Part shown: positions 8,693 to 33,868 of the stretch, piece after piece
Numbering within the stretch: the first letter of the stretch is position 1
Layout of the letters: each line of letters starts with the position of its first letter
Source of the DNA: Oscillospiraceae bacterium
GTDB lineage: Bacteria; Bacillota; Clostridia; Oscillospirales; Oscillospiraceae
Direction of reading: 5' to 3'
DNA length: 51,593 bases
NCBI GenBank assembly: GCA_017380435.1
Contig: JAFODZ010000020.1
Span: 1 to 51,593, forward strand
Notes under the pieces: model-generated
Told to the model about the DNA's origin: nothing
What the model saw: the letters and a program-made list of their open reading frames with translations, nothing else
Databases searched by the model: none
Program-made: the position numbers and the translations under genes

Positions 8693-8710
8693 CCAGGCAA
8701 CCCCAAAGAG

Positions 8711-8750
8711 TGTCATTGCGAGCCAGTGCGCACACTGGCGTGGCAATCTC
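8711..8750. repeat. Dispersed palindromic repeat, family B, copy 1
   Basis: TGTCATTGCGAG, inner palindrome CCAGTGCGCACACTGG, then CGTGGCAATCTC. Related copies with different inner palindromes lie at 45372-45406, 45464-45503 (inverted) and 51536-51572. It sits between the MATE stop and the thioredoxin ribosome site. Confidence 0.8.
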
Positions 8751-8781
8751 TAAAAAAATAATATATACAGGAGGAAGAAAT

Positions 8782-9090
8782 ATGTCTGTCGTGCATGTTG
8801 GAAAAGAGAATTTTATGCAGGAAGTCATGGAAAGCGACCGCCCGGTGCTGGTGGATTTCTGGGCGTCCTGGTGCGGCCCCTGCCGGATGATCGCCCCTAC
8901 TCTGGACGAGATCGCCGAGGAGCGGGAGGATATTAAGGTAGTTAAGATCAATGTGGATGAAGAGCCGGAGCTGGCCAATCAGTTTTTTGTTTCCAGCATT
9001 CCCACCCTGTTCGTGATCAAAAACGGAAAGGTTACCGCCCAGTCTTTGGGCGTAAGACCTAAGGCTGCCATCCTCTCCATGGTGGACTGA
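8782..9090 (+). CDS. trxA: Thioredoxin
   Basis: A 102-residue cytoplasmic thioredoxin. The active site is WCGPC within VDFWASWCGPCRMIAP, and the cis-proline loop is SIPTLFVIKNG. It reduces protein disulfides, normally fed by thioredoxin reductase, which is not in this window. ATG 8782 is preceded by AGGAGG, giving the standard thioredoxin length; an upstream in-frame ATG (8710) lies inside the repeat and is rejected. It has no signal peptide, unlike the extracytoplasmic thioredoxin-like domains encoded at 13.2-26 kb. Confidence 0.96.
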   Translation: MSVVHVGKENFMQEVMESDRPVLVDFWASWCGPCRMIAPTLDEIAEEREDIKVVKINVDEEPELANQFFVSSIPTLFVIKNGKVTAQSLGVRPKAAILSMVD

Positions 9091-9163: not shown

Positions 9164-9202
9164 TAAAATATAACTATGCAATGCAACCAAGGAGGAAGAT
9201 TT

Positions 9203-13172: not shown

Positions 13173-15953
13173 ATGAAAAACATGAAGAAACTTGTTGTCA
13201 TGCTGACCGTGTTGGCAACCCTGTTTTCCCTGACCGCAGGTCTTGCGGGTTGTAAGGAAAACGGCGATGGCGGTACTGTCATAGCGGGCAATTCGGCAGA
13301 TTATAAGATCGCTGTCCGCACTGCCGGCGGTATGGCCATGGAGGGTGTTGCCGTATCGGCCTATACCGACGAAGCCCTCAGCAATTTGCAGGGCTACGGT
13401 CAGACCAATGCCGATGGTATTGCCACCATCTCCCTGCCCCAGGGCGCTACTTATTATCTCAGCCTTTCCGGTGTGCCCAAGGGATATGATCTGAAGCCGT
13501 CCTACACCTTGGACAGCACTACCTATACCATCACCCTTACCTCCAGCCTGATTACCGGCGAATCCATGAGTGAAACGACTTTGAAGCTGGGCGATGTGAT
13601 GTACGATTTCACCGTCACCACCCCCGACGGAACGGATATCACCCTGTCGGAGATGCTTAAGGAAAAGGAAATGGTTCTGATGAACTTCTGGTACACCGGC
13701 TGCAGCTGGTGCGTTACCGAGTTCCCCTTCATGGAGAAGGCCTATCAGCTCTACCAGGACAAGGTGGGCATCGTGGCGCTGGATCCTCTGGGCGAGAGCA
13801 ACGAGGCCATTGCTGCCTTCCCCGCATCCCAGGGTCTGAGCCTGACCTTCCCTCTGGCTGCCTGTCCCTCTGCCTGGGCCAATACCTTTGGCATCAGCGG
13901 CTATCCCACATCCGTGATCGTGGATCGCTACGGCGTGATCGTGGCTATTGAGGCCGGTGCTATTACCAGCCTGCGCCCCTTCACCAGCCTGTTTGAGACT
14001 ATGACCGGCGACGACTACCAGCAGAAGCTCTACGAGAGCATCAGCGAAATGGAGATCATCCCCGAGCCTGTTTATCAGATGCCTGCGGAGGAGACGATTG
14101 CTGAAATCCTGGGCGCCACCGAGCTGCCCGTTGCCTTCCGTGCCGAAGAGGGCGAAAGCGCTACCTACTGCTGGCCCTTCATCGAGGCTGAGAAGAACGG
14201 CGAGCGCTGCCTGAAGGCCTCCAACCAAAATATTGAAGACTCCTATTCTATCATTTATATGGATGTGACCCTGGAAGCCGGACAGGCCTTTGGCTTTGAC
14301 TTCCTGCGCTCCACCGAGACCGGCGGCGACTTTATGTATGTAATCGTCGATGACGAAGACATCAATGCCATTTCCGGCTTCTTCACCGAGGAAAAGTGGG
14401 AATCCTGCTATCCGCTGGTGGCGGATGAGGCCGGCACTTACGAAGTTGCCCTGTGCTATCTGAAGGATTCCGAGATCGATGTGGGCGACGACACAGTGTA
14501 TGTTAAGAATCTGCGCATTGTGGAGGAGAGTAAGATCGACACCGCTACTTTCCTGCCCAAGAAGGCAGCCACCTCCATTGATGGCTTTACATATGAATAT
14601 GTGCCTACCGTGTTTAACAAGAAGGATGGCTACTACCATGTAGGCGAGGAAAACGGCCCGCTGCTGCTGGTGGATCTGCTCAACCCCACCGAGTTCAGCG
14701 AGGAAGATTCCATCTGGCTGATGGCCTACGACGGCCAGATTTTGGTCGATGGTGTGGATTATGTAGATAGTATCGAAATCTATAGTAACTATGCCAACAA
14801 CTCCAATCTTAACGGTGTTGTTCCTGTGAATCAGGAGCTGTACGAGCTGCTGCAAAAGGTCGATCAGGCCATTGGCTTTGACGAAGAAGACAAAAACGAG
14901 TGGATGAAGGCTTGTAAGTACTTCAAGTCCTATGGCACCAAGGAGCAGCTGGAAGACCCCATTGCCGGTCTGGCTCCTTTCAGCGCCTTTACTGCCAAGG
15001 AAGGCAAGAACATTCCCACCAATGTCTTTACCTACAACCGTCTGATTATGCCCCGCGGTCTGTTCGCGGAGTTTATCCCCAGCCGCTCCGGCGCATATCG
15101 CATTACCTCCCGCAATGAATCCCGGGACGGCGTTGACGGCTGGATCTTCGATGAAAACAAGAATATGCTGCTGAACACCGACGATTTCTATGAAAGAACC
15201 TTCGCTGAGCCGGGGGAAATTTCCATGGTCTATTATATGGAGGCCGGAAAACCCTACTACATCAACATTGCTCTGAAGACCACCAATGAGCAGGTAGGCA
15301 GCATCTACTACGATATTGAGTACCTGGGCGCAAGCTATAAGCACTTTATCAGCGCCTCCGCCGGTGCGTTTACCTATAGCACCGATGCCACCGGTACTGC
15401 CATGAACTACACCATCGCCCCCGGTATCGATGTGGTTCTGGGCAGCGACGGAAAGTACTACCACGATCTGGGCGACGGCAAGACCGGCAGCGTTCTGTAT
15501 GCCGACTTTGTCAACTCTACTTCCTCCATCACCACTCCCATCTCCTCAGGAAACGGAATTAAGGGTCTGATCGAGCTGGGCGCATTTGATTTCAGCAAGG
15601 ATGAAAGCGATACTTATGTGCTCACCGCTATGAGCTACAGCGAAAACGACCCGGAAAAGACCAAGGAATATCTGAAAAAGATGTGGGGCGCCGACTACGA
15701 GGCAAACTACCAGCTGTACAAGGTGGATGATGTTCTGGCCGGCATTTATCACGGCAAGGGCGAGGACTACACCGAGATCATGCGCCAGTATGAAAAGAAG
15801 GTGATCACCTCCGGTGCTTCCGAGCTTCGCGGCTGTGTGGTCGTCGATGAGCAGCTTGCAGAGATCTTGCAGATGCTGATGGATAAATACACCTTCGAGG
15901 GTGTAGAGACCTCCTGGCGCAAGATGTGCTACTACTACGATACCGTTGGCTAA
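13173..15953 (+). CDS. Lipoprotein with SpaA-like and extracytoplasmic thioredoxin-like (TlpA-type) domains
   Basis: 926 residues. The signal peptide has a lipobox (LAGC, Cys27), so it should be lipid-anchored outside the membrane. An SpaA/carboxypeptidase-regulatory-like beta domain (about 40-125) precedes a TlpA/redoxin domain (about 135-290). That domain has active-site C177-S-W-C180 in NFWYTGCSWCVTEFPF and a cis-Pro region GYPTSVIVDRYG. Beyond it the protein is unfamiliar: a beta-rich region, then two copies of a module starting DGYYH (about 485) and DGKYYH (about 758). Both have a following LLLVDL- or VLYADF-type strand and a W-x3-C-K/Y-Y-F/Y ending. Related modules end the next two lipoproteins. 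Thiol oxidoreductase activity outside the cell is a family-based inference. ATG 13173 follows AGGAGA; it is the first gene of the cluster. Confidence 0.85.
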   Translation: MKNMKKLVVMLTVLATLFSLTAGLAGCKENGDGGTVIAGNSADYKIAVRTAGGMAMEGVAVSAYTDEALSNLQGYGQTNADGIATISLPQGATYYLSLSGVPKGYDLKPSYTLDSTTYTITLTSSLITGESMSETTLKLGDVMYDFTVTTPDGTDITLSEMLKEKEMVLMNFWYTGCSWCVTEFPFMEKAYQLYQDKVGIVALDPLGESNEAIAAFPASQGLSLTFPLAACPSAWANTFGISGYPTSVIVDRYGVIVAIEAGAITSLRPFTSLFETMTGDDYQQKLYESISEMEIIPEPVYQMPAEETIAEILGATELPVAFRAEEGESATYCWPFIEAEKNGERCLKASNQNIEDSYSIIYMDVTLEAGQAFGFDFLRSTETGGDFMYVIVDDEDINAISGFFTEEKWESCYPLVADEAGTYEVALCYLKDSEIDVGDDTVYVKNLRIVEESKIDTATFLPKKAATSIDGFTYEYVPTVFNKKDGYYHVGEENGPLLLVDLLNPTEFSEEDSIWLMAYDGQILVDGVDYVDSIEIYSNYANNSNLNGVVPVNQELYELLQKVDQAIGFDEEDKNEWMKACKYFKSYGTKEQLEDPIAGLAPFSAFTAKEGKNIPTNVFTYNRLIMPRGLFAEFIPSRSGAYRITSRNESRDGVDGWIFDENKNMLLNTDDFYERTFAEPGEISMVYYMEAGKPYYINIALKTTNEQVGSIYYDIEYLGASYKHFISASAGAFTYSTDATGTAMNYTIAPGIDVVLGSDGKYYHDLGDGKTGSVLYADFVNSTSSITTPISSGNGIKGLIELGAFDFSKDESDTYVLTAMSYSENDPEKTKEYLKKMWGADYEANYQLYKVDDVLAGIYHGKGEDYTEIMRQYEKKVITSGASELRGCVVVDEQLAEILQMLMDKYTFEGVETSWRKMCYYYDTVG

Positions 15954-15980
15954 AAAACCATAGGAACCGGGATTTTATCT

Positions 15981-16100
15981 TGCTTTCTTGTTTCGGCAAG
16001 AAAGCAAGCAAAGAAGCCGACTTAGTGGAGGCGCTGAGTTGATAGCTCCCGCTATCAAAGCCGCCCTCCCCTAAGTACCCCTCCCGGCGCGCAAAGTCGG
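15981..16100. repeat. Structured intergenic element
   Basis: Three nested or adjacent inverted repeats: TGCTTTCTTG/CAAGAAAGCA (15981-16006), CCGACTT (16017-16023) with AAGTCGG (16094-16100), and TTGATAGC-tcc-GCTATCAA within. An imperfect long stem also forms between CTTAGTGGAGGCG and CGCCCTCCCCTAAG. It resembles a dispersed repeat and may reduce read-through between lipoprotein genes. Confidence 0.5.
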
Positions 16101-16182
16101 AAAAGCGCAAAATGTTTCACATTGTAAGGAACAGTGTTCTGCTGAAAATGCAGGATAATTGATCATAAAGAGGATGATTTTA

Positions 16183-17385
16183 ATGAAAAAGAATATCAAG
16201 GCATTGCTGCTGGCGGTGGTTATGCTGTTTGCTCTGGTGCTGACAGCCTGCGGCGGCAGCGGCGAGGCGGATTATACCGTTACCGTTACCGATGCAGCCG
16301 GCACACCCTATAACCAGGTAGCGGTGAAGTTTATGCAAAACGGCCAGCAGGTAGCTATGCAGCTGGCAGGGGAGAACGGCGTTGCCCAAAAGACCCTGCC
16401 CAAGGGCGATTACACCGTGCAGCTGCAATTCACCGACCCCAAGGCCAATTTCGTCTATGATACGGAAAACTTGACCCTGTCGGCGGACAAAACGGAGCTG
16501 ACAGTCGTGCTTTCCATGGCACTGGGCGAAGAATACTTTGAGCTTGCCGAGGGCAAGGCATACTATATTTCCGAAGGCTCTACCAATATCACCCTGAACC
16601 CCGAGGGCAGAAGCTATTTCATCTTCACCCCCAAGCAGGTGGGCAAGTTTGAATTTTCCTTAAACGGCAGCGATGCAGCCATTGGCTATTTTGGCGGCAG
16701 TGTCCATTATGTCTGGCCTGAGAGCGCGGTAGAAGTTGTGGATAATAAGTTCACGGTAGATATCAAGCAGGATCAGCTGGGCGGTGCCATTGTGATTGTG
16801 GGCGTGAATGCCGGAGAAGGCAATGCGCTTTTGAATGCCATTCGTGTAGGCGATCCCAGTTGGACGGTGGAGGATGAACCCTGGAGCATCTATGAAGCCG
16901 CCACACCGGCAACAGCCTATACTTTGCCCGCCGGCGCCAAGGTGAACAAATTCGATATTACCGCAGCCGGCTATACCCTGGTTCTCAACGAAACCGACGG
17001 CTTCTACCATCTGGATACTGTCGATGGCCCGCTGGTGCTGGTGCAGATCGGCAATACCGCAGAAGAGACCGAGTACCTGCCGCCCTTTGCCACCATTTTG
17101 GAAAAGCAGGGTCTGCGCCGCTATTTCTACGACGACGGCGGCAACTTCCTGAAAAAAGAGGAATACTCCCAGTGCGTTCTGAACTACATTGAAAAGGCGG
17201 ACGAAGCATCCGGTCTGTATCCTCTGACAGAAGATCTGAAGTATATCATCGCCAATACCGGCATCCAGATGGGTTGGTTTGATGTGGAAAACGCCGGATA
17301 TCTGTTCAAGGACTCCAATGGCAATCCTGTTATCGGTGTCAACAGCGATATTTCCTGGCTGTTTATGTGCCGCTATCTGGGATAA
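16183..17385 (+). CDS. Lipoprotein with SpaA-like domain and shared C-terminal module
   Basis: 400 residues. Lipobox LTAC puts the lipidated Cys at 23. An SpaA/carboxypeptidase-regulatory-like domain (YTVTVTDAAGTPYNQVAVKF, about 28-115) is followed by a beta-sandwich (about 120-235, with FIFTPKQVGKFEFSL). The C-terminal module (about 265-400) has DGFYHL, GPLVLVQIGN, KEEYSQC, SGLYPLTEDLKYII and GYLF. The whole chain aligns by order and motifs with the C-terminal half of the next lipoprotein, but the thioredoxin-like domain is missing, so it is a shorter paralogue. Function unknown. ATG 16183 was chosen over 16159 because AGAGG lies nine bases upstream and the signal peptide then begins MKKN. 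Confidence 0.75.
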   Translation: MKKNIKALLLAVVMLFALVLTACGGSGEADYTVTVTDAAGTPYNQVAVKFMQNGQQVAMQLAGENGVAQKTLPKGDYTVQLQFTDPKANFVYDTENLTLSADKTELTVVLSMALGEEYFELAEGKAYYISEGSTNITLNPEGRSYFIFTPKQVGKFEFSLNGSDAAIGYFGGSVHYVWPESAVEVVDNKFTVDIKQDQLGGAIVIVGVNAGEGNALLNAIRVGDPSWTVEDEPWSIYEAATPATAYTLPAGAKVNKFDITAAGYTLVLNETDGFYHLDTVDGPLVLVQIGNTAEETEYLPPFATILEKQGLRRYFYDDGGNFLKKEEYSQCVLNYIEKADEASGLYPLTEDLKYIIANTGIQMGWFDVENAGYLFKDSNGNPVIGVNSDISWLFMCRYLG

Positions 17386-17409
17386 TACAGAAAATAGGAG
17401 GGTAAGCAT

Positions 17410-20400
17410 ATGACCCTTAGTAAAAAGCGCATGGCAGCGCTGGTTGCGCTGTGCCTGGTGCTGTGCATTGGCCTGGGTCTGACGGCCTGTAAGCAAAATG
17501 GCGGACAGCCTGCCGGTGAACCTATCACCTACAGCTTAAGCGTGAAAAACCAAGGCGGAATCGGCCTTGGTGACATCTCCGTATATATTTATGAAAACGA
17601 TACCCTGCAGGAGCTGATCGCGGTAGCAACCACCGATCAGCAGGGCAATGCCAGCTTCCAATGCCCCGCCGCAGAAGGTTATGTGGCGGTGCTGGGCAAT
17701 GTGCCGGACGGCTACGGTGTGGAAAAATTCTATCCATTGACCGGGGAGCAGACCCAGATCGTGCTGTCTGTGCAGCTGGTAGAGGGTGACCTGGATACCG
17801 CCAGCTATAAGCTGGGGGATGTGATGCAGGACTTCACCTTTGCCGATGCAGCAGGCAATACCTATAAGCTCTCCGAGCTGCTGCAACAGAAAAAGGCAGT
17901 GGTTCTGAACTTCTGGAGCCTGGATAATGCCCAGTGCAAAATAGAACTGCCCTATTTCCAGCAGGCTTACGACGAATATGCAGATTCCGTTGCCTTGCTG
18001 GCAATGAATCCGAAAGACCGGGATAATGCTGCGGTTGCCGCCTTTGCCCGGGAGAACGGTTTGACCTTCCCCATGGGCGTGTGCGAAAGCAGCTGGTCTG
18101 AGGCTATGAACCTGCTGAGCCTGCCCACCACCGTTGTCATCGACCGCTACGGCATGATCACCTTGCTCCAAAGCGGCAGCTTCTCTTCCGCGGCAGCGGT
18201 GGGGGATGTGTTCGCCTTCTTCACCGCCGAGGACTATACCCAAACTGTGGTGGAGAATGTGGAAGATATTTTGGTGACGGAGCCGGAGGATGAATACGGC
18301 AATCCTGTGGATATCAGCGGTCAGTCCAGCTTTGAGCTGACCCTGGATCCCGGCAAAGTCCACCTGCTGAATATCCACAAGGTTAGCAATGTGTGGATGC
18401 AGGTGAAAAACCCCCATATTTATGTAGAATACGGCGGCAAGAAATTCACTGCCCAGGGCGGTGAAGTGGGATTGCTGGTGTCTGCACCCAGCACCTTTGA
18501 ACCTGCCCAGCTGATCTTTGGCAACAGCGGCACGGAAAAGCAGACCTTTACAGTCACACTTTCCAACCTCGCCGGCTCGTTTGACAATCCTTACACCCTG
18601 TCCGTGGGAGAATTTACCGCCAGCGTATCTGCCGGTAACAACCAGGGCGTGTACTTCAAATATACCGCTGCCGAGGACGGCTATTTTAACTTGCAATGTC
18701 TGGGCGTGACGCCCAATATCAAATACGGCTTTAGTGTAATGAATCTGACCACCAGCGTTATGCGTACTATGGAAGACGACGGCGTTGTAGATGAGCAGAC
18801 CGGCGCTAAGGCTCTGACTATGGCAATGAACAAGGGCGAGCAGCTGCGTATCACCATTGCCGCAATGCCCGACGATTCCAACAACTATCCCGCTGCTTCC
18901 TTCCGGATGCTGGCAAAGTTTACCGCCGGTGATGTGGAAGATGTGGTAGTGGTGGAGAAAATTCCCTATGCAGTAACCGTTACCGACGAAAACGGCAATC
19001 CAGTTCCCCAGGTGAATGTCAACCTGTTGGGAATGCTCCCGGAAACTCCTGTAGAGGGAACCGAAGATGAAACCGCACCTGCTGAGCCTTTCCGGGCCAA
19101 TGCCGCCACCGATGAAAACGGCGTGGCAGCGCTGAGAATTCCCAAGGATACCTATACCGGCAGCATCATCGTGCCTTCCGGCTATAAGGCTACCACTACG
19201 GAATTTACCCTGACTCCGGAGCACCCCTTCCTGTCGCTGAAAATCGATACCCATGTGGTGATTATGGAAGACTATACGGTGCGCGTGGTGGATGAGGAAG
19301 GCAACCCGGTTGCAGGCGTTCTGATTACCATCGGCACAAACTTCGGCACGACCGACACCGACGGCGTTGTGACGCTGAAGCTGGAAAAGGGCGAATATAC
19401 CGCCACCATCGGCGCCCCCGAAGGCTACTATGCCGATGAGATTTCCGTAGATTTCCCCAAAAACAGCAATGTGCTGGGCATCACCCTGAAGAAGGGCTCC
19501 GGGGAAACAGCAGGCGTTGCCTATACGGTCAATGTGGTCGATGCCAACGGCGATGCGCTGAAAAATATTGTTGTTACCTTCAATCAGAACGGTAAGCCGG
19601 TGACCATGGCAGTTGCTCCCAACGGTACGGCTACCGCAACACTGCCTGCCGGCACATACAACATCACCCTGACAAGCTCCAGCGGCGCTGCGCTGAAATT
19701 TGATGCAACCCAGGCAACCGTAACAGCGGATAAGACCGCCACCACCATTACCGTATCCGAAAAAATCGATGCAAGCAGCATGGAATCTGCATGGTGGGGA
19801 TATTACTACAAGGTTTCCACCGGAAGTATGTGGGTTGATCTGGCAGATATCCAGAATCTGAGCGAGGAATACGGCTGTTATATGTATGTATTCCTGCCGG
19901 AAAGTCCCGGCATCTATCGCTTCAGCACCAGCAATGGTACAGTTTTGGGATACTACGGCGGAATCAACTTCCCCAACGGCCCCAGCTATTCCACCGATAA
20001 CGAAAACGGCTTCTTTGAGCTGACTGTCCGCGACGGTGAATTTGAAAGTGATAGCCAACCGGCATTGGTGCTGGGTCTGGAGCGTACAGGGGATGTGGTG
20101 GATGCCACAATGACCATTGTCCGCACCGGTGATCCCCCGAAGGAACTGCCCAGAGTGGTCTATGAGCCTGTTTGTCAGATCCAGGGCGTGGGCAAAATCA
20201 ACGGCAAACCTACTTATATCGACTTGACTAAGTCCGTTTCCATAGAAAAGGGAAGCGACGGCTTCTACTATCTGGGCGGCAAGAAACTGTATATGAATAT
20301 CAGTAAGGAAGCGCCCTTCCTGTCCTTCAATCAGATGCTTGGTCTTAACTATGACCCGGCAACCGGTCAGTGGACCGCCGGCTCTACCGGTACGGGTATG

Positions 20401-20652
20401 CGCGGTTTGATCTATGAAGACGGTGTTGCGGTACTGATGGAGGATTATACCCAGTGTATGGGCGATTACATCCAGGCATCCGATCCTTCCAGCGGTCTGT
20501 ATCCGCTCAATGACGATCTGATCCATATGGTTCAGACTACCGGTTTGTATATGGGCTGGTGGAAGATTGACAATCCCAACTATCTGTTTGCCACCGTGGA
20601 GGGGATGAATCCCGATACCGGCTGGATGTTCAGCGTTTGCACCTTAGGATAA
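17410..20652 (+). CDS. Large lipoprotein with degenerate thioredoxin-like domain and four SpaA-like domains
   Basis: 1080 residues, lipobox LTAC with Cys27. Order: an SpaA-like domain (about 38-125); a TlpA-like domain (about 135-290); a beta-rich region (to about 515); three more SpaA/carboxypeptidase-regulatory-like domains (about 520-620, 620-695, 700-780); a beta-sandwich; and the shared C-terminal module (about 945-1080: DGFYYL, EDYTQC, SGLYPLNDDLIHMV, NYLF). The thioredoxin fold keeps NFW...ELPYFQ and LPTTVVIDRYG, but the active-site motif is N173-A-Q-C176, so the nucleophilic cysteine is gone. It may bind rather than reduce a partner, or work with a second protein's cysteine. GGAGGG precedes ATG 17410, 24 bases after the previous stop, so co-transcription is likely. 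Confidence 0.82.
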   Translation: MTLSKKRMAALVALCLVLCIGLGLTACKQNGGQPAGEPITYSLSVKNQGGIGLGDISVYIYENDTLQELIAVATTDQQGNASFQCPAAEGYVAVLGNVPDGYGVEKFYPLTGEQTQIVLSVQLVEGDLDTASYKLGDVMQDFTFADAAGNTYKLSELLQQKKAVVLNFWSLDNAQCKIELPYFQQAYDEYADSVALLAMNPKDRDNAAVAAFARENGLTFPMGVCESSWSEAMNLLSLPTTVVIDRYGMITLLQSGSFSSAAAVGDVFAFFTAEDYTQTVVENVEDILVTEPEDEYGNPVDISGQSSFELTLDPGKVHLLNIHKVSNVWMQVKNPHIYVEYGGKKFTAQGGEVGLLVSAPSTFEPAQLIFGNSGTEKQTFTVTLSNLAGSFDNPYTLSVGEFTASVSAGNNQGVYFKYTAAEDGYFNLQCLGVTPNIKYGFSVMNLTTSVMRTMEDDGVVDEQTGAKALTMAMNKGEQLRITIAAMPDDSNNYPAASFRMLAKFTAGDVEDVVVVEKIPYAVTVTDENGNPVPQVNVNLLGMLPETPVEGTEDETAPAEPFRANAATDENGVAALRIPKDTYTGSIIVPSGYKATTTEFTLTPEHPFLSLKIDTHVVIMEDYTVRVVDEEGNPVAGVLITIGTNFGTTDTDGVVTLKLEKGEYTATIGAPEGYYADEISVDFPKNSNVLGITLKKGSGETAGVAYTVNVVDANGDALKNIVVTFNQNGKPVTMAVAPNGTATATLPAGTYNITLTSSSGAALKFDATQATVTADKTATTITVSEKIDASSMESAWWGYYYKVSTGSMWVDLADIQNLSEEYGCYMYVFLPESPGIYRFSTSNGTVLGYYGGINFPNGPSYSTDNENGFFELTVRDGEFESDSQPALVLGLERTGDVVDATMTIVRTGDPPKELPRVVYEPVCQIQGVGKINGKPTYIDLTKSVSIEKGSDGFYYLGGKKLYMNISKEAPFLSFNQMLGLNYDPATGQWTAGSTGTGMRGLIYEDGVAVLMEDYTQCMGDYIQASDPSSGLYPLNDDLIHMVQTTGLYMGWWKIDNPNYLFATVEGMNPDTGWMFSVCTLG

Positions 20653-20665
20653 ACGACAAAAAAGA

Positions 20666-20701
20666 CCGCAGGGCGGATAGCATCCGCCTGCGGCTTCCGC
20701 A
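20666..20701 (+). promoter_or_regulatory. Two mutually exclusive hairpins before the small lipoprotein
   Basis: CCGCAG-g-GCGGAT pairs with ATCCGC-CTGCGG (20666-20693). Alternatively TGCGG-ctt-CCGCA (20689-20701) forms. No T run follows, so processing or partial attenuation inside the operon is possible. A dispersed palindrome is the simpler explanation. Confidence 0.35.
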
Positions 20702-20735
20702 AAAGAGGAATATCCTCAAATATAAGGAGGAAAAT

Positions 20736-21137
20736 ATGATGAAAAAGTTGATTGCTGCTATGCTGCTGGTGAGCCTGGTATTTTGCCTGTGCGCCTGCGG
20801 CGAAACCCAAAATAACAACGAAACAAACGCACCCGAAGTAACCGAACCCCAGGAAAGCGAAGTACAGGCTACCGGCGTTACCTACACCATCAAAGTGGTG
20901 GATGAAAGCGGCAACCCTGTTGCGGGCGCTATGGTTCAGCTTTGCTCCGATCTGTGCCTGCCCAAGATCACCGATGCACAGGGCGTAGCGGTTTTTGAAA
21001 ATCAGGAGGAAAAGGATAATTATAAAGCCTCTGTTACTTCCTATCCCGCCGGCTACGAGCAGTTGGGCGAGGAAACCGAGTTCTATTACGGAACAGGCAT
21101 CTACGAGGTAACCATCACCGTTAAGGCAGTCGCTTAA
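20736..21137 (+). CDS. Small lipoprotein with one SpaA/carboxypeptidase-regulatory-like domain
   Basis: 133 residues. The signal peptide ends in LCAC (Cys21), followed by an Asn/Glu/Thr-rich linker (about 22-48). A single beta domain has YTIKVVDESGNPVAGAMVQL and ITDAQGVAVF, the same build as the domains in the larger neighbours. The domain contains two further cysteines (LCSDLC) that could form a disulfide or serve as a redox substrate. ATG 20736 is preceded by GGAGG at the ideal distance. Function unknown; it could be a minimal binding partner of the larger lipoproteins. Confidence 0.75.
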   Translation: MMKKLIAAMLLVSLVFCLCACGETQNNNETNAPEVTEPQESEVQATGVTYTIKVVDESGNPVAGAMVQLCSDLCLPKITDAQGVAVFENQEEKDNYKASVTSYPAGYEQLGEETEFYYGTGIYEVTITVKAVA

Positions 21138-21175
21138 AAGTGCGGTAATCTGCCGATAAAGGAGAAACGGCTATT

Positions 21176-23965
21176 ATGAAAAATAAAAAGCTATTATGGC
21201 TGCCGGTGGTTCTTCTGCTTGTTCTTGCAATCGGTGTTTTTGCTGCCTGTCAGCGGGGACTTCCGGATGAGCTTGAACCTTCCGAAAGCCAGACCCAGCC
21301 GGAACCTACTCAGCCGGAGCCCACCGAAACAGAACCGGTGCTTACAGAGCCGGTGGCAACCGAGCCGGAAGAAACTGAGCCGGAAGCTACCGAGCCGGAG
21401 GAAACCACTGCTCCCGGAAGCTCCGGTCCTAATGTGAATACCGGAACCGGCGGCGGTTATGATCCCGGAACTACGGAACCGGGCACAACAGAACCGGGCG
21501 CAACAGAACCGGACACGGATGTCACGGAGCCTGCGATCGAAGTTCCCGCCGCAGGTTCTGAGGCCAACCCCTATTATGAAAACATCCAAAATGGAGCAGG
21601 GGAGTTTACCACCGTAAAGATCCCCGCCGGCGCAACCGTTTATTATCGCATTCAAACCGCGGGCCAATTCCTGTGGGTTGAATCGGAAGATATCTCCGTT
21701 ACCTATGAAGAACCTGCCCAGCAGACCCGGGACGGTAGAATGCAGCTGGAACTGCCCGCAGACGACAGCGAGCCGATCAGCCTGGCATTTACCAACAATT
21801 CCGACGAAGATCAGAATTTCCCTGTGCAGATCGTCGGCCCTGTGGGCAGTGCCAGCAATCCCATCGAGGTAGGCGCGCTGGAGGATATTTCTGCCGCTTT
21901 GGAGCAGGACGATGTAGATGGCCTGCACTACCGGTGGATCGCTGACCGGGACGGTATGCTCAAGCTCTGGGCAGACAGCAGCAAGGATGTGGATATCAAC
22001 CTCTTTGTGGACGAAAAAGCTGTGCAGCTGACCCAGGATAACGGCGGCAAGCTGTGCGCCCAGGTCAAAGCGGAGGATGTGCTCCTTGTGCAGCTGCTGG
22101 CCAAGAGTGACAGCGAGGGCAATATCCCTGCTGCGGAAGTGAAGCTCCACGGCTATATCGCCCAAATGGTGGATCTTTCGGTTATGTTTGTGCCCTTTGA
22201 GGCTGAGCCTGTAACGGTGGCACCCGGAGAAAGCGCTTACTATACCATCACCGGCGCGAATGGAAAGCAACTGCAGCTGGCAGCGGAAAAAGCGCAGATC
22301 TACTGCGGCACAGAAACCTTGCTGCCGGATGAAAACGGCGTAATCCGTTTGAGCATCACCCAGGACACCCAGCAGATCGAGGTCTGCAATACAGACACGC
22401 AGGAAAGCACCTTTGTGGTCAAGATCCATTACCGGGAAGGACATATGCTCAATCCCCAGGTGCTGGAGCAGTTGGGCAACGAGCTGATCGCCCAAACCTC
22501 TGCCACCGACGGCGGACATTATTACAGCTATACAGCGCCCGGTGCCGGTTTGGTCACATTCCAGATTTTGGAAGCCCCGGATAATGCCGGCGCAATTCCC
22601 AAAATCCTGTTGAGCAACAACACCAGCGGCGCAACCGCAGAACTTACGGATGTAGAGGGTACAGTTTCTGTGCAGGTATCCGCAGGCGATTGCCTTGCCA
22701 TCTGCGTGCTGGTCGAGGATGACCTCGGCGCTGGACTGGATGCCCAATTGAGTATCCTTGGCAATCATTTCGGCACGGAGGAGAATCCCATCGTTGTGGA
22801 ATATCCCGGATTTACTGCCGATGTGCCTGCCGGCCAGACGCTGTATTACCAGTGCTTCAATATGAACGGCGTTCTGTTCTCTTTGAACGCAAGCGATGTA
22901 ACAGTTGCCCATAACGGCACGGAGCATACCGGCGAGCAGATCGCATTCCCCATCGTCAGCGAGGGAAGAAACCCGGCGGTGTTTGCCATCACCAACACCG
23001 GCACGGAAGACGGTGAATTTGCGGGCGTATTTACCTATCCCGTTGGCTATGCCGAAAACCCGGCACCGCTGATTCTGGGCAGCAATACGCTGACGCAGGA
23101 AGCAGGAGCGGGGGAATACTACTATACCTTTACCGCGCCCAAAGCCGGTAAATTGACTGTGCGCTTTGATGAAACTGCCCAGTGGGTCTATGTGGTCAAC
23201 AATCTTACCCAGGGCATTTATGGTGATACCCAATGGAGCGACAGCGACCCGATGATTCCTGCTACGGAGATCACAGTCAAGAAAAATGATGTGATCCAAA
23301 TTTCTGTCAATACCTACGATAAGGATAATGTGTTTGAAGCACCCGCCGGAACGGTGGAGTTCACCGCAGAGTATGTCAGCGGCCCCACCAAGATCACGAA
23401 TTTGAATGGGAGCACTGCAGTATCCCTGATCCCCGGAGAATACGCCATCTACACAGGCCAGTTCTACGGCAAGATGCTGAACATTACCGGCGCCGCCAAC
23501 ACAGTGGTCTATTACGACGGTACGGCTTATACGCCAGAATCCTCCGGCAGAATTTCGATTCTGTTCCCGGAAAGCGGTACAGATGATTTGCAGATTAAGA
23601 TCCATAATACCGGTACAACCAATATTACGCGCAGTCTTCTTTTTGGCGGAACGGATATTGGTACGGATAGCAATCCGGACATTTTGGAGTTGGGAACGAC
23701 CAATTTGACCCGGGAAGCTGGCAGCGACTTCTATATCTTCACTTATACCGCACAGACCAGAGGTACGCTGGTGCTGACCTTTGGTGGTGATGTGGATTGT
23801 ATGTATTACATCAACAATCAGATCCTCGGCTATTCCAATACTACTGCTACCCGCAGAGTATCCGTTCGAGAGGGTCAGACGATCACAATTGCGGTCAGAA
23901 CCTACGACCCGGCTAAGCCCACCGCTTCCCCCGCAGGCACTATCACCATCACAGCAACCCAGTAA
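21176..23965 (+). CDS. Lipoprotein with Thr-Glu-Pro linker and tandem beta-sandwich repeats
   Basis: 929 residues. The signal peptide ends FAAC (Cys25). A TEPE/TEP-rich tandem-repeat stalk (about 30-120) lifts the rest off the membrane. The remainder alternates two repeated beta-sandwich types. Type A has a PAG/PGE-x-YY opening and a later I-x-NTG. Type B starts with NPI/NPD (GSASNPIEVG, AENPAPLILG, DSNPDILELG), then an aromatic YxYTAP stretch and a PAG near its end. I count about four A/B pairs. No enzyme motif is visible, so ligand binding or a structural surface role is likely. GGAG lies upstream of ATG 21176. It is the last gene of the cluster, followed by strong terminators. Confidence 0.75.
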   Translation: MKNKKLLWLPVVLLLVLAIGVFAACQRGLPDELEPSESQTQPEPTQPEPTETEPVLTEPVATEPEETEPEATEPEETTAPGSSGPNVNTGTGGGYDPGTTEPGTTEPGATEPDTDVTEPAIEVPAAGSEANPYYENIQNGAGEFTTVKIPAGATVYYRIQTAGQFLWVESEDISVTYEEPAQQTRDGRMQLELPADDSEPISLAFTNNSDEDQNFPVQIVGPVGSASNPIEVGALEDISAALEQDDVDGLHYRWIADRDGMLKLWADSSKDVDINLFVDEKAVQLTQDNGGKLCAQVKAEDVLLVQLLAKSDSEGNIPAAEVKLHGYIAQMVDLSVMFVPFEAEPVTVAPGESAYYTITGANGKQLQLAAEKAQIYCGTETLLPDENGVIRLSITQDTQQIEVCNTDTQESTFVVKIHYREGHMLNPQVLEQLGNELIAQTSATDGGHYYSYTAPGAGLVTFQILEAPDNAGAIPKILLSNNTSGATAELTDVEGTVSVQVSAGDCLAICVLVEDDLGAGLDAQLSILGNHFGTEENPIVVEYPGFTADVPAGQTLYYQCFNMNGVLFSLNASDVTVAHNGTEHTGEQIAFPIVSEGRNPAVFAITNTGTEDGEFAGVFTYPVGYAENPAPLILGSNTLTQEAGAGEYYYTFTAPKAGKLTVRFDETAQWVYVVNNLTQGIYGDTQWSDSDPMIPATEITVKKNDVIQISVNTYDKDNVFEAPAGTVEFTAEYVSGPTKITNLNGSTAVSLIPGEYAIYTGQFYGKMLNITGAANTVVYYDGTAYTPESSGRISILFPESGTDDLQIKIHNTGTTNITRSLLFGGTDIGTDSNPDILELGTTNLTREAGSDFYIFTYTAQTRGTLVLTFGGDVDCMYYINNQILGYSNTTATRRVSVREGQTITIAVRTYDPAKPTASPAGTITITATQ

Positions 23966-23978
23966 AAATCAAAAAACA

Positions 23979-24012
23979 GCCGCCGGAGGCAATGTGCTCC
24001 GGCGGCGTTTTC
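23979..24012 (+). terminator. Terminator of the lipoprotein cluster
   Basis: A perfect 10-bp GC stem (23979-23988 with 23997-24006), eight-base loop and a GTTTTCT tail. Confidence 0.85.
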
Positions 24013-24020
24013 TATATAAA

Positions 24021-24051
24021 AGAGGATGCCGTGGAGGCATCCTCTTTTTTT
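24021..24051. terminator. Bidirectional terminator between convergent operons
   Basis: AGAGGATGCC pairs with GGCATCCTCT (24021-24030, 24036-24045). Seven Ts follow on the plus strand and TTTTATAT on the minus strand. Confidence 0.88.
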
Positions 24052-24056
24052 GGTGT

Positions 24057-25520
24057 TTAGGCAAGCAGCTCGTCAACTGCGTTCTTTAGGTCCTCATAGT
24101 GGACAGAACTGAAGAAAATATAGCGGATCACGCCGGTTTCGTCCAGAATCAGCGTGTAGGGATAGGCGCTGAGACCTCCTAAAGTGAGGTAGTACTGACC
24201 GTCCATATCGCTTGGATTTGCTCCCTTTTCCCAGGAGAACAGCAGTTTGGAATCGGGGTAATTGTCTGCAATATAGGCCGGGGCGGTGTCGCTCAGACCG
24301 GCAGAGTGGATCGCAACCACAGTGACGGAATCGGCATATTCCTCTGCGATCTGCTGGAAGTAGGGAAGCTCCTTCACACAAGGGCCGCACCAGGTTCCCC
24401 AGAAGTTGATAACGGTAATTTTGCCGCTTTGGCTGGGGTTAAGGTACTGCCCGGTTGGGCCGTTTCCGTCAATCAGCTCCAGCTCGTAGCCGGGGCAAAG
24501 ATCACCGATTTGATTGCCCTCCGGGGGAAGCTGTTCGCCGCTGGCAAACCAGCTGTAGCCGATCGTGCCGATGAGCATAGCCGCCAACAGGACTGCGGAA
24601 ATGCTTCGGGTAACTTTCTTTGCGGTTTTTTGCTTGGGTTTATCGGTTTCGTTGGGGGCAAGGAAGATCTTTGGACCTTTCCAGGAGATAGCCTTGGTGG
24701 GACAGACCCCCACACATTCGCCGCAGCTAATGCATTCCTGGTCGCCGGGATTTCGAATATCTACCTTGCATTTTGCCTGACAAAGTCCGCAATGGGTGCA
24801 TTTGGAGTTATCTACCTGAATGCCGAAAATGGAGATTTTGTTGAACAGTCCGTACAGCGCGCCAAGGGGACAAATGAAACGGCAGAACAGCCGGAAAATG
24901 AACACGCAGCCGACAATAATGCTCACCATCAGCAGGAATTTCCAGGTAAACAGCGGGCCTAAAATGGACAGAAGTCCCTCATTTGTCTTGTGGGACAGCA
25001 GCAGAAGTCCGCCTTCAATCGTACCTGCGGGGCAGATGTATTTGCAGAAGGCGGGCAGGGGAACACCCCGCAAGCCGTAAGTAATGGGAACAATAAAAAC
25101 GAAGAAAACTAAAATCGCGTACTTAAAATAGGAGAGGATCCGGGTCACCGGGCTCTTTTTCAGCTTGGGGGTTTTAATTTTGTAGGCCAGCTCCTGAATC
25201 AGTCCAAAGGGGCAAAGCCAGCCGCAGATCATTCTGCCGAAGAGAATGCTGTACAGCAGCAAAATTCCGGCAACATAGAACAGGGTGCTGCGGTTTTTTG
25301 CGCTGAACGCACCCTGCAACGAACCTAAGGGACAGGCGGCAACCGCACCGGGGCAGGAGTAGCAGTTGATGCCGGGGGCGCAGAGGATCTTGCTTTGCCC
25401 CTTGAAAATATTGCCGGTGACAAAGCCTTTGAGGTTGGCGTTAAACAGCAGCGCAAAATATAACTGCATTATTTTTCGCTTGGAGGGCAGCCATTTTTGA
25501 ATAAATTTCTTCATAACCAT
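24057..25520 (-). CDS. Polytopic 4Fe-4S membrane protein fused to a TlpA-like thioredoxin domain
   Basis: 487 residues. The N-terminal part resembles the NapH/YccM/CcoG-like group: several membrane helices, an N-terminal Cys cluster (CAPGINCYSCPG, then ACPLG), and CGWLCPFG, CKYICPAG and CRFICPLG at helix ends. Next come two ferredoxin-type motifs, CTHCGLCQAKC and CISCGECVGVCP, a further helix (SAVLLAAMLIGTIGYSWFA) and a TlpA-like domain with C378-G-P-C381 (NFWGTWCGPCVKELPYF). Likely job: carry electrons from the cytoplasmic ferredoxin side through the membrane to reduce the outside thioredoxin domain. ATG 25520 overlaps the preceding stop as TGATG; ATG 25514 is an alternative. It is co-transcribed with the CTEC-tail gene and convergent with the thiol-domain lipoproteins. 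Confidence 0.88.
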   Translation of the reverse strand: MVMKKFIQKWLPSKRKIMQLYFALLFNANLKGFVTGNIFKGQSKILCAPGINCYSCPGAVAACPLGSLQGAFSAKNRSTLFYVAGILLLYSILFGRMICGWLCPFGLIQELAYKIKTPKLKKSPVTRILSYFKYAILVFFVFIVPITYGLRGVPLPAFCKYICPAGTIEGGLLLLSHKTNEGLLSILGPLFTWKFLLMVSIIVGCVFIFRLFCRFICPLGALYGLFNKISIFGIQVDNSKCTHCGLCQAKCKVDIRNPGDQECISCGECVGVCPTKAISWKGPKIFLAPNETDKPKQKTAKKVTRSISAVLLAAMLIGTIGYSWFASGEQLPPEGNQIGDLCPGYELELIDGNGPTGQYLNPSQSGKITVINFWGTWCGPCVKELPYFQQIAEEYADSVTVVAIHSAGLSDTAPAYIADNYPDSKLLFSWEKGANPSDMDGQYYLTLGGLSAYPYTLILDETGVIRYIFFSSVHYEDLKNAVDELLA

Positions 25521-26284
25521 CACCCCAATCCTACGCATTCGGTGCAGATGGCAGCGGCTTTTGCCAGCACATCGGCCATACCGCCGAAGCAGAAGCCGAC
25601 TACCAAAACCACCACGGCAATGACCAAAACAGAATACCGGGCGATGATCACGCCGGTCTGCTTTTTCTCTTTCACAGCAGGAATAGCATCGGATGCTGCG
25701 CCCTGGGCCAAGGCCTGTTTGACAAGCTCAATTTCCTTGCGCATACTGAATTTTTTGTGGTAAGCGGTAAAGATCGCAAAGCAGCAGGGGAGGGTAAGAC
25801 AGGTGAAAAACAGCGGCATTGCCTGCAAAACGGCGCTATTGGCATCGTCGGGATAGTTTTGCGCGTTTAAGGCATAGCCGAAAAACAAACTGCTGCAAAA
25901 AACAAGCACGCCGGCAGTGCAGCCGCGCCACGCCATCCGCCAAATCCGCTTTTTCCGGATGGCTTGCACCAGCTCCGGAGGGCATTTGGTGATATCGACC
26001 TTTTTGCAAAGGTTATGCAGTATAGTTTCGTACTGCTTTTCCGGCTTCAGCTTTGTTTCCCGGAAGGAAAAGGCATCGATCAAGAAACCGACGATCACCA
26101 GGGCAAGACAGCAGAAAACAGGAATTGAGATGGTATCAAAGGCTGCTGCCACCGATTCCCGGGAGAATGACCCCGCCTGGAAGTCATAAATATCCACACA
26201 GGCCACGATCAGACAGATGCCGCAAATGACGAGCACCACACTGAGGATGATCCCGTAAAGCAGATGGAGGTATTTTTTTGTCAT
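25520..26284 (-). CDS. Membrane protein with C-terminal CTEC motif (CD1871A-like tail)
   Basis: 254 residues with about five membrane helices and a soluble stretch (about 70-105). The last helix ends in ICTECVGLG, placing C247 and C250 at the extreme C terminus. This tail strongly resembles the small CD1871A-family CXXC proteins of clostridia, which end in a similar CxECIGxG sequence. Here it is attached to a longer polytopic protein. The neighbouring 4Fe-4S/TlpA gene starts on this gene's stop, so the two products probably work together, the CXXC pair perhaps passing electrons or thiols. ATG 26284 is supported by GGAGG eight bases upstream; open sequence upstream in the same frame runs antisense to the protease gene and is rejected. 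The family comparison is from memory. Confidence 0.75.
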   Translation of the reverse strand: MTKKYLHLLYGIILSVVLVICGICLIVACVDIYDFQAGSFSRESVAAAFDTISIPVFCCLALVIVGFLIDAFSFRETKLKPEKQYETILHNLCKKVDITKCPPELVQAIRKKRIWRMAWRGCTAGVLVFCSSLFFGYALNAQNYPDDANSAVLQAMPLFFTCLTLPCCFAIFTAYHKKFSMRKEIELVKQALAQGAASDAIPAVKEKKQTGVIIARYSVLVIAVVVLVVGFCFGGMADVLAKAAAICTECVGLG

Positions 26285-26455: not shown

Positions 26456-26521
26456 AAAATGGACTATGTATAAGGCGAAGTAGCCTGTTTTTGACATTAA
26501 ATGAGAAAGGCGATTCAACTC

Positions 26522-29500
26522 ATGAAAAACAAAATGCACCCAAGTATTTTGCGCAAGCTGGCGGCCTTGCTGCTGGTGATATCTATGGTATCCGGCTTTG
26601 CGCTGATCCCCCATGCCAGTGCGGCGGAAGGGGAGGACTTCTCCATCAACAAGATGGAAGGGGTCAAGGTGGATTACGAGAGTTATCTGGATAACTCCGT
26701 GATGTACCGCCTGCCCGAGACCATCCGGGATGATGAGGAGATCTCCGTCATCATCACCCTGGAGCAAATTAATCTGATGGATGCCTACGAAGGTACCGAT
26801 AAGGCTATGAGCTTTACAGATTATGCTTTGTCCAGCCAGGATGCAGCTGACCTTCGGGCAGCCATCACTGCCGACCGGGCAGCAATGCTGGAAAAGCTGG
26901 ATGCCCAGGGCATTGCCTATTCTACAGGCGAGGTGTTCGACACCTTGCTCACCGGCTATGAGCTGGTGATCCGGGCTTCGGATTATGCCGCTGTTGCCCA
27001 GTCTGTCAGCGACGGCAGCAAGATCGTAGTAGGCGAGGTTTACCGGGCAGCGGAAGCGCAGCTGGTGGAAAATACCGTTAATGTTTATGAAACCGGTATC
27101 TTCAAAAGCGGCGAATCCGGCTACGACGGTACGGGTATGGTGGTAGCGGTTTTGGATACGGGTTTGGATTCCAAGCACACCGCCTTCAGCACCGCAAACT
27201 TCACCTCCGATAAGCTGGGTCTGACCTATGAGCAGGTGGCCGCAGTTCTCGACCGCACCAAGGCCAAGGAGCTGGCCGGCGACTTGAGCGTTGACGATGT
27301 ATATATCAACGAAAAAGTCCCCTTCGGCTATGACTACGCCGACAACGACCCGGATGTGTTCTCCACCCACAATAATCACGGCACTCACGTTTCCGGCGTG
27401 ATTGTGGGCAAGGACGACACCATCACCGGCGTTGCGCCCAATGCCCAGCTGGTTTCCATGAAGGTTTTCTCCGATATTATGGATACCGCCCGGGCAGCCT
27501 GGATTCTCAACGCGTTGGAAGACTGCGTGATTTTGGGCGTGGATGTGATCAATATGTCCCTGGGTACTGCCTGCGGCTTCGGCACGGAGGGCGAGGAGGA
27601 AATGACCAGCGGCGTGTATGAGAAAATCCGCAAGGCAGGCATTTCTCTGATTGTGGCAGCCTCCAACAGCTACAGCTCCGCCTACGGCTCTGAGCGCAAC
27701 GGTAACCTGGGCCTGACCTCCAACCCCGATACCGGCACAGTCGGTTCTCCCGGTACATATGCAGGAACCATGTCTGTTGCCTCCATCAACGGTGAAGAAA
27801 CTCCCTATATCGAGTTTAACGATACCATCATCTATTTCGACGAAACCACCAACGGCGCTTCCAAGGAAAACGATTTCTTCGAAACACTCCTGGGTGAGGA
27901 AGATTCCCGTACTTATGAATATGTTGTCATCCCCGGCGTAGGCCGTGCAGCGGACTATACCGGCATGGATGTGACGGGCAAGATCGCCCTGGTCCGCCGC
28001 GGTGACAATACCTTCGAAGAAAAGGCGATGATCGCCGAGGCCCAGGGTGCTGCCGGTATCATCATCTATAACAACGTTTCCGGCGAGATCAAAATGAATG
28101 TGGGCAAGGCAAAGCTGGCTGTTTGCTCCATCACCCAGGACGACGGCGAAATGCTGGTAGCAGCCGGCGGCGGCAAGCTGAAGATCAAGAAGGATCAGAC
28201 CTCCGGCCCCTTCATCTCCGATTTCTCCTCCTGGGGTCCCACCCCGGAGCTGGGCATCAAGCCGGAAATCACCGCCCACGGCGGCAACATTCTCTCCTCC
28301 GTCACCGGCGGCGGTTACGACCGTCTGTCCGGTACCTCCATGGCCTGCCCCAACCTGGCAGGTGTGGCCATCCTGCTGCGGCAGTATGTGGTGGAGAATT
28401 TCCCCGATATTGCCAATGACAGCTGCGCGGTCAACGATATGGTTTACGGTCTGCTGATGTCCACTGCCGATATCGCCTTCGGCACCAACGGACAGCCCTA
28501 TTTCGTCAGAAAGCAGGGCGCAGGTCTTGCCAATCTGATGGCTGCCATTCGTACGCCCGCAGTCCTCACGGCCTACGACCGTAAGGGCAACGAAATGGAC
28601 AAGCCGAAGCTGGAGCTGGGCGACGATCCCGAAAAGACCGGCATCTATCAGATGACCTTCGATATCCGCAACTTCGGCAAGAAAACCGTAAAATATGAGC
28701 TGGGCGCCTATGTGATGACCGAGGGCGTCAGCGATACCAAGACCAGCGCCGGTGAAACCACCGTTACGGAAGAAGCGGTGATTCTGGAGGGCGCACAAAT
28801 CACCATCGACTCCGTGGAGGGCGGCAAGCTTTCCAAGAATACCGTTTCTGTCAAGGAAGGTGAAACCGCCAAGGTCACCGTGACCATCACCCTCACCGAG
28901 GAAAACAAGGCATATCTGGATACCTCCTTTGAAAACGGTATGTATGTGGAGGGCTTCATCACCCTTACCGCAAAATCCGGCGCCGATGTAAATCTGAACA
29001 TCCCTTATCTGGCCTTCTACGGCGACTGGACTTGCGCTCCGCTGTTCGACTTGGACTACTTTGAGACCAACGCCGACGAGCTGGACGATTCCATCGCCAA
29101 GGAAGACAAGCTGCTGGCTGATGCCTACTCCACCCGTCCCGTCGGCGGCTTGACCGAGGACTATATCAACTACTTAGGTTCCTACTATTTCCTGCAAGAC
29201 CCCAGCGATATTACCATTTCCGCAAACCGGGACTATGTGGCGCTGTCCAACCAGGAGGCAACGATCCACTCCTTGCGGTTTGTGTTTGCAGGTCTTCTGC
29301 GCAATGCCAAGAAAATCGAGGTTGTGATCACCGACGATACCACAGGCGAAGTGATCTTTGAGACCGTGGATGATGATGTGCGCAAGTCCTATGGCGACGG
29401 CGGCTCTATCTACCCGGCCAATGTGGAGATCGAGTTCGACACCATGGACTACAACCTGGCCAACAATACCCAATACACCGTAACCCTCACCGGTTATCTG

Positions 29501-33829: not shown

Positions 33830-33843
33830 GCAATGATAATGAT

Positions 33844-33868
33844 GGGCAAAGCCGCAATGGCTTTGCCC
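33844..33868 (+). promoter_or_regulatory. Hairpin between protease and lipoprotein genes
   Basis: A perfect 10-bp stem GGGCAAAGCC/GGCTTTGCCC with a five-base loop and no T run, just before the next ribosome site. It could stabilise or process the mRNA. Confidence 0.45.

Follow-up and report, generated by a model that had tools for sequence, protein, structure and literature searches.

We analyze a 51,593-nucleotide stretch of DNA (hereafter, the window) from an Oscillospiraceae bacterium (assembly GCA_017380435.1, contig JAFODZ010000020.1, positions 1-51,593, forward strand), in which two convergent operons encode what is probably a ferredoxin-driven transmembrane thiol reductase serving surface proteins. 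The operon on the minus strand (24057-26284) contains a gene that joins a NapH-like 4Fe-4S membrane protein and a TlpA domain in one chain ("the fusion") and a gene for a membrane protein ending in CTECVGLG ("the CTEC protein"); the operon on the plus strand (13173-23965) contains five lipoprotein genes, which we call LpA to LpE. At the level of sequence, the genes, their domains and linkage, the invariant cysteines and the topology signals are established, and the unit is real, conserved and probably functional.

The original prediction, made from the nucleotide sequence by itself, held that cytoplasmic ferredoxin electrons cross the membrane to keep surface thiol proteins reduced, without DsbD or quinones. 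All the features on which it was built are present (open reading frames, Pfam domains and motifs). Its interpretation is partly supported as a whole: none of the contrary outcomes that it had named turned up, and the only homologue of known role that we compared is the distant NapH. Our analysis adds four elements that were not part of it, namely a TlpA-type domain in LpC, a neighborhood of S8 subtilase and peptide-import genes, a set of outward cysteines as the likely exit point for electrons, and a split form of the system. Genes were called with a simple open reading frame picker, and the Pfam scan covered 17 window proteins up to position 39011.

The fusion protein and its CxEC-tail partner

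The fusion gene (24057-25538, minus strand) encodes 493 residues with Fer4_5, Fer4 and Redoxin/AhpC-TSA matches above the gathering thresholds, in which three Fer4_5 stretches are followed by a pair of ferredoxin motifs, a hydrophobic segment and a TlpA/Redoxin domain with WCGPC. The two 4Fe-4S motifs (residues 243-285; 24684-24812), predicted to be cytoplasmic, are separated by the hydrophobic segment (residues 309-331; 24546-24614) from the TlpA domain (24078-24512), predicted to be extracytoplasmic. All 20 motif cysteines are invariant in an alignment of 64 fusions; the eight ferredoxin cysteines, the TlpA cysteines C384 and C387, and the ResA-type glutamate E390 are each found in 64 of 64 rows. 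Both the fusion and LpA belong to the TlpA/ResA group by their Redoxin/AhpC-TSA fold, their CxxC with a following glutamate and their Pfam matches above gathering, and this glutamate corresponds to E80 of ResA. The CxxC and glutamate, invariant in the 64 fusion rows and in 13 LpA rows, form a signature of the reductase type. Elsewhere in the same genome (L002:1393-1965) lies a gene for a stand-alone TlpA lipoprotein that is 52% identical to the TlpA domain of the fusion.

The NapH-like part shares its inner CX3CP cysteines (C105, C109, C219 and C223) and the eight ferredoxin cysteines with E. coli NapH and YccM. We rejected the possibility that the fusion is an ordinary NapH: it scores 69.6 bits against the NapH/MauN family TIGR02163, far under the cut-off of 213; there are no NapG or NapA nitrate reductase genes among the 17 scanned window proteins, to which the search for nap genes was confined; and genomes carrying the CxEC-tail family mostly lack UbiA, as described below. 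No FMN-binding family, which a NapH-like flavinylation system would have on the protein or beside it, occurs among the same 17 proteins either, and neither the fusion nor the CTEC protein matches a DsbD transmembrane domain (PF02683 or PF13386).

What sets the NapH-like part apart is a group of six cysteines predicted to face outward. Loop 1 (residues 47-85; 25284-25400, minus strand), predicted from topology to lie outside, carries C53, C59, C62 and C69, and loop 3, also predicted outward, carries C165 and C169. All 79 fusion rows carry all six, as do all 36 rows from loci L050-L085 (115/115). The full set occurs in none of 20 other NapH-like rows, drawn from the 21 NapH-region matches listed next in rank, down to 112 bits, with the one from genome G245 set aside; in E. 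coli NapH and YccM all six are absent. We rejected the idea that the set is exclusive, as the proteins of L202 and L203 lack just one of the six cysteines, L219 has three and C69 is common. The proteins at L202 (G264) and L203 (G230; wider maps L222 and L223) have no CxEC tail within the 2 kb fetched, and the genes beside them are presumably for aromatic amino acid biosynthesis, judging from their N-terminal sequences. Together with the two cysteines of the CxEC tail, the six loop cysteines would amount to eight, a number that could hold two 4Fe-4S clusters or make up four dithiols. The role of the CX3CP motifs in NapH, NosR and PceC is left open in the available text of a study of such proteins (PMC5928378).

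The partner gene (25520-26284, minus strand) overlaps the fusion gene by 19 bases, a figure that shrinks if translation begins at an internal ATG. It encodes a membrane protein of 254 residues with five hydrophobic segments and a C-terminal tail predicted to lie outside, the CTECVGLG codons being at 25523-25546. The CD1871A family model (NF040920) aligns with residues 219-254 at 26 bits by hmmscan and 30.2 bits in the genome search, short of the cut-off of 32; long-form relatives in L084 and L085 score 47.1 and 44.8 bits. The context is that of the CD1871A type, with CxECxGxG at the C-terminus after the last hydrophobic segment and a NapH-like gene adjoining. A profile search of the PDB with the CTEC proteins returned eight weak matches, the best at E 0.0016 to a chain named sc-CC-6-95.

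The two genes stay together across species. A scan with a fusion profile, covering one genome per GTDB species, found at least 594 stretches (at least 593 relatives), of which we used the best 80 loci, mostly from gut metagenome-assembled genomes labelled Oscillospiraceae, Lachnospiraceae, Clostridia or Clostridiales. In 77 of these 80 loci a CxECxG tail is encoded immediately before the fusion gene, with a median intergenic gap of 1 bp and a gap of at most 60 bp in 72 of 76. The neighborhood is conserved in relatives: the order S8 subtilase, CTEC gene, fusion, lipoprotein recurs in the relatives' maps, in some genomes across two or three contigs.

We took the topology of the fusion from loop charges and NapH homology rather than from plain segment counts. 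Averaged over 64 rows, net charge is +5.3 at the N-terminus, +2.0 in loop 1, +4.8 in loop 2, +0.2 in loop 3, +4.6 in the ferredoxin part and -18.3 in the TlpA part. These charges fit a topology with the N-terminus, loop 2 and the ferredoxin part inside and loops 1 and 3 and the TlpA part outside. The outward placement of loops 1 and 3 depends only on the strong later segments: with loop 2 inside, the second segment puts loop 1 outside however the first one lies. The original placement of ferredoxin and TlpA on opposite sides of the membrane is supported by charge signals: the segment between them is present in 77 of 79 fusions, and its ferredoxin side carries more lysine and arginine than its TlpA side in 75 of 79. 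The CxEC proteins of fusion loci differ in size by class; most (63/76) have 3, 5 or 7 hydrophobic segments, and segment counts, made with a hydropathy window and not a trained predictor, are odd in 66 of 76 and even in 10. In every one of these 63 proteins the loops on the N side are the more basic ones; because of this and the odd counts, the CxEC tail is predicted to be outside.

Lipoproteins and distribution across genomes

All five lipoproteins are encoded on the plus strand and have a lipobox-like signal, as judged by eye. LpA (13173-15953; Pfam and alignments) exceeds 900 residues and combines a ResA-like domain (CSWC, with C177xxC180 and E183) with two C-terminal modules. Its family profile matches a ResA chain with E 5e-28; C177, C180 and E183 are present in 13 of 13 aligned rows, and conservation extends along the full length of the protein. 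C581, in the first C-terminal module, is invariant (20/20 rows) and is possibly an intramolecular target of LpA's own ResA-like domain.

In LpB (16186-17385) an Ig-like domain at the N-terminus is combined with a single C-terminal module resembling those of LpA (E 4e-10). The N-terminal domain is common to LpA, LpB, LpC and LpD, the C-terminal module to LpA (twice) and LpB. LpC (17410-20652; Pfam and domain match) joins four stretches resembling the shared Ig-like domain to a TlpA-type domain in which the first active-site cysteine is gone (NAQC); the CxxC is kept in six of seven LpC relatives examined (L037, L038, L039, L042, L044 and L046), and none was flagged in the close relative in L045. 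LpD (20739-21137) is a small lipoprotein with the shared N-terminal domain (E 3e-11), and LpE (21176-23965) a large one that has no Pfam family over gathering, with relatives in L037 and L045.

Among 59 related genomes, ten carry the fusion, eight at 52-75% identity to the window's and two at 50-51% (G026 and G036). LpA is matched at E 1e-30 or better in eight of the ten, the match in G026 being partial. Across an even sample of 295 genomes from the order, seven genomes, from three families, have the complete fusion, and the same seven have the LpA family (both at E 1e-60 or better); in two of them LpA is matched only in part (G491, where the match lies at a contig end, and G555). The NapH part alone is present in 28 further genomes of this sample, none of which has LpA. 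Because the complete fusion and the LpA family occur in the same seven genomes, LpA would be a dedicated acceptor. Across the best 80 loci, 33 show a further gene like TlpA, LpA or LpC by BLAST, and many loci end at contig ends; in the distant locus L153, an LpA homologue lies within the same operon, directly before the CTEC gene.

The tail and the NapH-like protein also go together over a wider range. In a sample of 243 genomes of the class, the tail family NF040920 is found in 38 carriers (35 over the cut-off, the other three being counted on tail matches below it), at 40 places and across 19 bacterial families. With a profile of the NapH part, 37 genomes yield 39 matches scoring above 330 bits, and the score then drops to 185 bits; the profile was made from 11 rows, several of them from genomes of this very sample, which match by construction. 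The two lists coincide in 38 pairs adjacent on one contig and one pair at two contig ends (G272). A 50-residue tail-family match below the cut-off at L225 (G202) has no NapH-like partner in the 9 kb fetched and is perhaps a false positive. Of 30 class loci fetched with about 3 kb each, all have a NapH-like gene and 20 a visible TlpA gene; L084 and L085 are fusions. The tail-bearing protein of the split loci is small, with about 50 residues and one hydrophobic segment. At L050 (G045), a split NapH and TlpA locus, no tail gene was called.

A 212-residue membrane gene stands beside two split operons. We considered CcdA and rejected it, as Pfam identifies the thiamine transporter S component (Thia_YuaJ), encoded ahead of the split operon at L067:2008-2646 and L070:679-1317.

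In a quick tree of the NapH domain (38 of 135 inner branches starred, some branches long), fusion and split forms are parted by one change, with all split-locus rows scored as short-tailed, though no tail is listed for L050 and L080. Because the tree needs only this single change, the fusion arose once, and we rejected repeated co-evolution of the fusion with the long tail protein.

Electron source, proposed relay and alternative explanations

The claim that the system works without quinones fits the distribution of UbiA, a protein of quinone synthesis: it is missing over the cut-off in 33 of the 38 tail-family carriers versus 130 of 205 non-carriers (Fisher p 0.004, uncorrected for kinship), and was found in 14 of 14 control genomes. 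The window's own genome, 59% complete, gave no match to UbiA, DsbD_TM or DsbD_2. As carriers mostly lack UbiA, ferredoxin would be the natural reading for the donor.

We infer the donor, the direction of the electrons, the cofactors, the order of the steps and the substrates as follows. A cytoplasmic ferredoxin or similar donor would reduce the two 4Fe-4S clusters of the NapH-like domain, from which electrons would cross the membrane via the NapH-like cysteine motifs to an outward center made of the six loop cysteines, possibly completed by the two tail cysteines of the CxEC partner. Dithiol reducing power would then be passed to the tethered TlpA domain, which would reduce LpA, and LpA in turn would reduce disulfides of other extracytoplasmic proteins.

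Several observations weigh against this relay, either in its donor, its topology or its linkage. NapH is thought to be a quinol dehydrogenase, according to the available text of one study (PMC5928378), and with such a presumed role the donor could differ from ferredoxin. The outward cysteines also occur one by one in the other NapH-like rows (n = 20), at C69 in 14, C165 in three, C169 in three, C59 in two, C62 in two and C53 in none. The first NapH segment of the fusion (residues 24-46) is weakly hydrophobic, with a median of 0.77; it reaches 1.5 in a 19-residue window in 0 of 79 fusions and 0 of 35 split rows; the other NapH-like rows do so in 18 of 19 cases, and both E. coli proteins, NapH and YccM, stand at 1.5. 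This weak segment may mark a different insertion or a helix in the membrane surface. A plain count gives four segments in 47 of 79 fusions and five in 29, and four segments with the N-terminus inside would, naively, put ferredoxin outside; the N-terminus of the fusion is placed inside only tentatively.

The linkage has its gaps as well. Fusion loci L115, L120 and L161 have no CxEC tail, LpA is unmatched in two genomes that carry the fusion, G008 (68% complete) and G036 (97%), and conversely G034 has LpA but no match to the fusion. As the fusion arose once, linkage and co-occurrence may partly reflect one inherited block. Finally, the DsbD domain DsbD_TM is present in 12 of the 38 tail-family carriers and absent from 26, versus presence in 114 of 205 other genomes (Fisher p 0.008, again uncorrected for kinship). 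With a DsbD_2 match in G262, 13 of 38 carriers have either domain and 25 neither, and 23 lack both DsbD_TM and UbiA. "Without DsbD" therefore stands as a tendency: the 26 carriers agree with it, the 12 and G262 do not, and we rejected substitution for DsbD as a full explanation.

If the relay is granted, its job might be another one. The main rival for its role is oxidative-stress repair, in which the same relay would feed an extracytoplasmic methionine sulfoxide reductase (Msr) or peroxidase and the lipoproteins would be repair enzymes or scavengers. The pneumococcal CcdA-Etrx-MsrAB2 system, as presented in the available text of its description, is a close functional parallel (PMC3914529), response-regulator-like genes (by motif, one confirmed by Pfam) are seen in six of 30 class loci, and L048 has an MsrA gene (Pfam) at a distance of 4.4 kb from its fusion, with one apparently present near the fusion in L049 as well. 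The MsrA, however, has no evident signal peptide and in both loci looks cytosolic; no Msr family is found among the 17 scanned window proteins, and no Msr-like cluster, by eye, among the recurrent neighbors of the best 80 loci. We consider this role unlikely.

More distant readings change the direction or the purpose of the electron flow. Were the flow inward, the TlpA and CxEC thiols would oxidize extracytoplasmic cysteines, forming disulfides, and dump the electrons into ferredoxin. The chain is reversible in principle, and quinone-free anaerobes would need an electron sink for disulfide formation, the carriers being mostly without UbiA; but TlpA/ResA-type active sites with the conserved glutamate belong to reductants, and the reduction of ferredoxin by dithiols is steeply uphill, which leaves this the least probable of the readings. 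Alternatively, the NapH-like part might export electrons for a metal or Fe-S task, such as the copper reduction proposed for CcoG-like proteins, with the TlpA domain maintaining only the machine's own cysteines. The six outward and two tail cysteines could bind two Fe-S clusters, and NapH-like modules work with many partners according to the available text of a flavinylation survey (PMC8238504). Against this, LpA, with a ResA-like domain of its own, tracks the complete fusion exactly in the 295 genomes, and no metal-related cluster was seen by eye among the recurrent neighbors of the best 80 loci; we regard it as very improbable.

Known systems and neighboring genes

The thioredoxin-type domain of LpA and the TlpA domain of the fusion resemble B. 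subtilis ResA, which serves cytochrome c maturation. LpA differs in its length of more than 900 residues, its extra modules and its occurrence in presumed fermenters. With CD1871A (NF040920) the CTEC protein shares KAxxICxECxGxG at the very C-terminus and the adjoining NapH-like gene; short members of that family have about 50 residues and one hydrophobic segment, whereas the window protein has five segments. NapH-, YccM- and NosR-type proteins (TIGR02163, PF12801) have the same inner CX3CP and ferredoxin cysteines and likewise move electrons across the membrane to an extracytosolic carrier; unlike them, the fusion has a thioredoxin-type domain as carrier in place of FMN or NapG, and extra outward cysteines. 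The flavinylation survey, in its available text, presents NapH-like proteins as modules for electron export that work with FMN carriers (PMC8238504).

In function, the nearest parallels are the pneumococcal CcdA-Etrx-MsrAB2 system (PMC3914529) and the Fusobacterium routes (PMC12288474), going by the available text of both reports. Like DsbD, CcdA and ScsB as described there, the unit would bring cytoplasmic reducing power to extracytoplasmic thioredoxin-fold proteins (PMC3914529, PMC12288474). It differs in that the window proteins of the operon lack a DsbD transmembrane domain and in that electrons would pass an Fe-S protein rather than cytoplasmic thioredoxin; in contrast to CcdA-Etrx-MsrAB, there is no linked extracytoplasmic Msr among the 17 scanned proteins.

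The closest precedent is a 2025 preprint, the available text of which describes a three-gene operon for a multi-transmembrane 4Fe-4S protein, a CxxC protein and TlpA in Blautia wexlerae, Anaerostipes hadrus and others, and calls it novel (PMC12637426). The operon is associated with immunotherapy side effects, and its authors suggest reduction of extracellular or surface targets (PMC12637426). Its genes are separate, and the fusion, the long CxEC protein, the outward cysteines, LpA-type lipoproteins and the subtilase are not met in that available text. Our searches of the open-licence literature listed nothing that we recognized as a report of the fusion, of long CxEC proteins, of the outward cysteines as a set, of LpA lipoproteins or of the subtilase link, and no paper on CD1871A or on TlpA together with NapH. 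Passing electrons to extracytoplasmic thioredoxins is thus a known idea, and the Fe-S/CxEC route is a new variant of which a split form was previously reported.

For strict anaerobes that have no quinones and in many cases no DsbD, the unit is a candidate means of controlling extracellular thiols, and it offers candidate residues in the outward cysteines, the CxEC tail and C177/C180 of LpA. If the reading is true, it would give a function to the named but unexplained CD1871A family and account for part of the modularity of NapH-like proteins. As the abundance of the split operon goes with immunotherapy side effects, in the available text of the preprint, the biochemistry matters beyond microbiology (PMC12637426).

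Divergent from the CTEC gene, on the plus strand, lies the gene for an S8 subtilase of 2442 residues with PA, Fn3 and BspA-type leucine-rich repeats (26501-33829; Pfam). It is followed on the same strand by genes for a lipoprotein, a solute-binding protein (SBP_bac_5, 35219-37801), a permease (BPD_transp_1, 38016-39011) and further transporter-like open reading frames, together suggesting a peptide importer (33833-42351, with the frames from 39024 onward outside the profile scan). A subtilase ortholog with at least 65% identity occurs in eight of the 59 relatives, which are those with the closest fusions; the best match elsewhere has 46%. By BLAST label, 13 of the best 80 loci have an S8 subtilase. 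It is divergent and 204-665 bp from the CTEC start in ten, all among the loci closer to the window; of the remaining cases, L119 has it at 5.4 kb, and L103 and L159 have it downstream. As a universal partner the subtilase was rejected, since it is in only these 13 loci.

It is possible that in the window's lineage the substrates are the proteins handled by the adjoining subtilase and peptide importer, a form of reductive proteolysis. A wider proposal, which we put forward tentatively and which is doubtful when taken whole, is that the Fe-S route forms a further class of thiol reductase beside DsbD, CcdA and ScsB, independent of quinones, DsbD and cytoplasmic thioredoxin and built around a joint center of six loop and two tail cysteines, and that in Oscillospiraceae of the ruminant and rabbit gut and their kin it is wired through thioredoxin lipoproteins to the subtilase and peptide importer, where it might reduce disulfide-bonded food or host proteins during digestion.

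Between the two convergent operons are terminator-like hairpins at 23979-24006 and 24018-24048. Just upstream of the lipoprotein genes, at 9176-12715, the window encodes a BspA-type leucine-rich-repeat protein with 40 cysteines, and ahead of it lies a thioredoxin gene (open reading frame 8710-9090).

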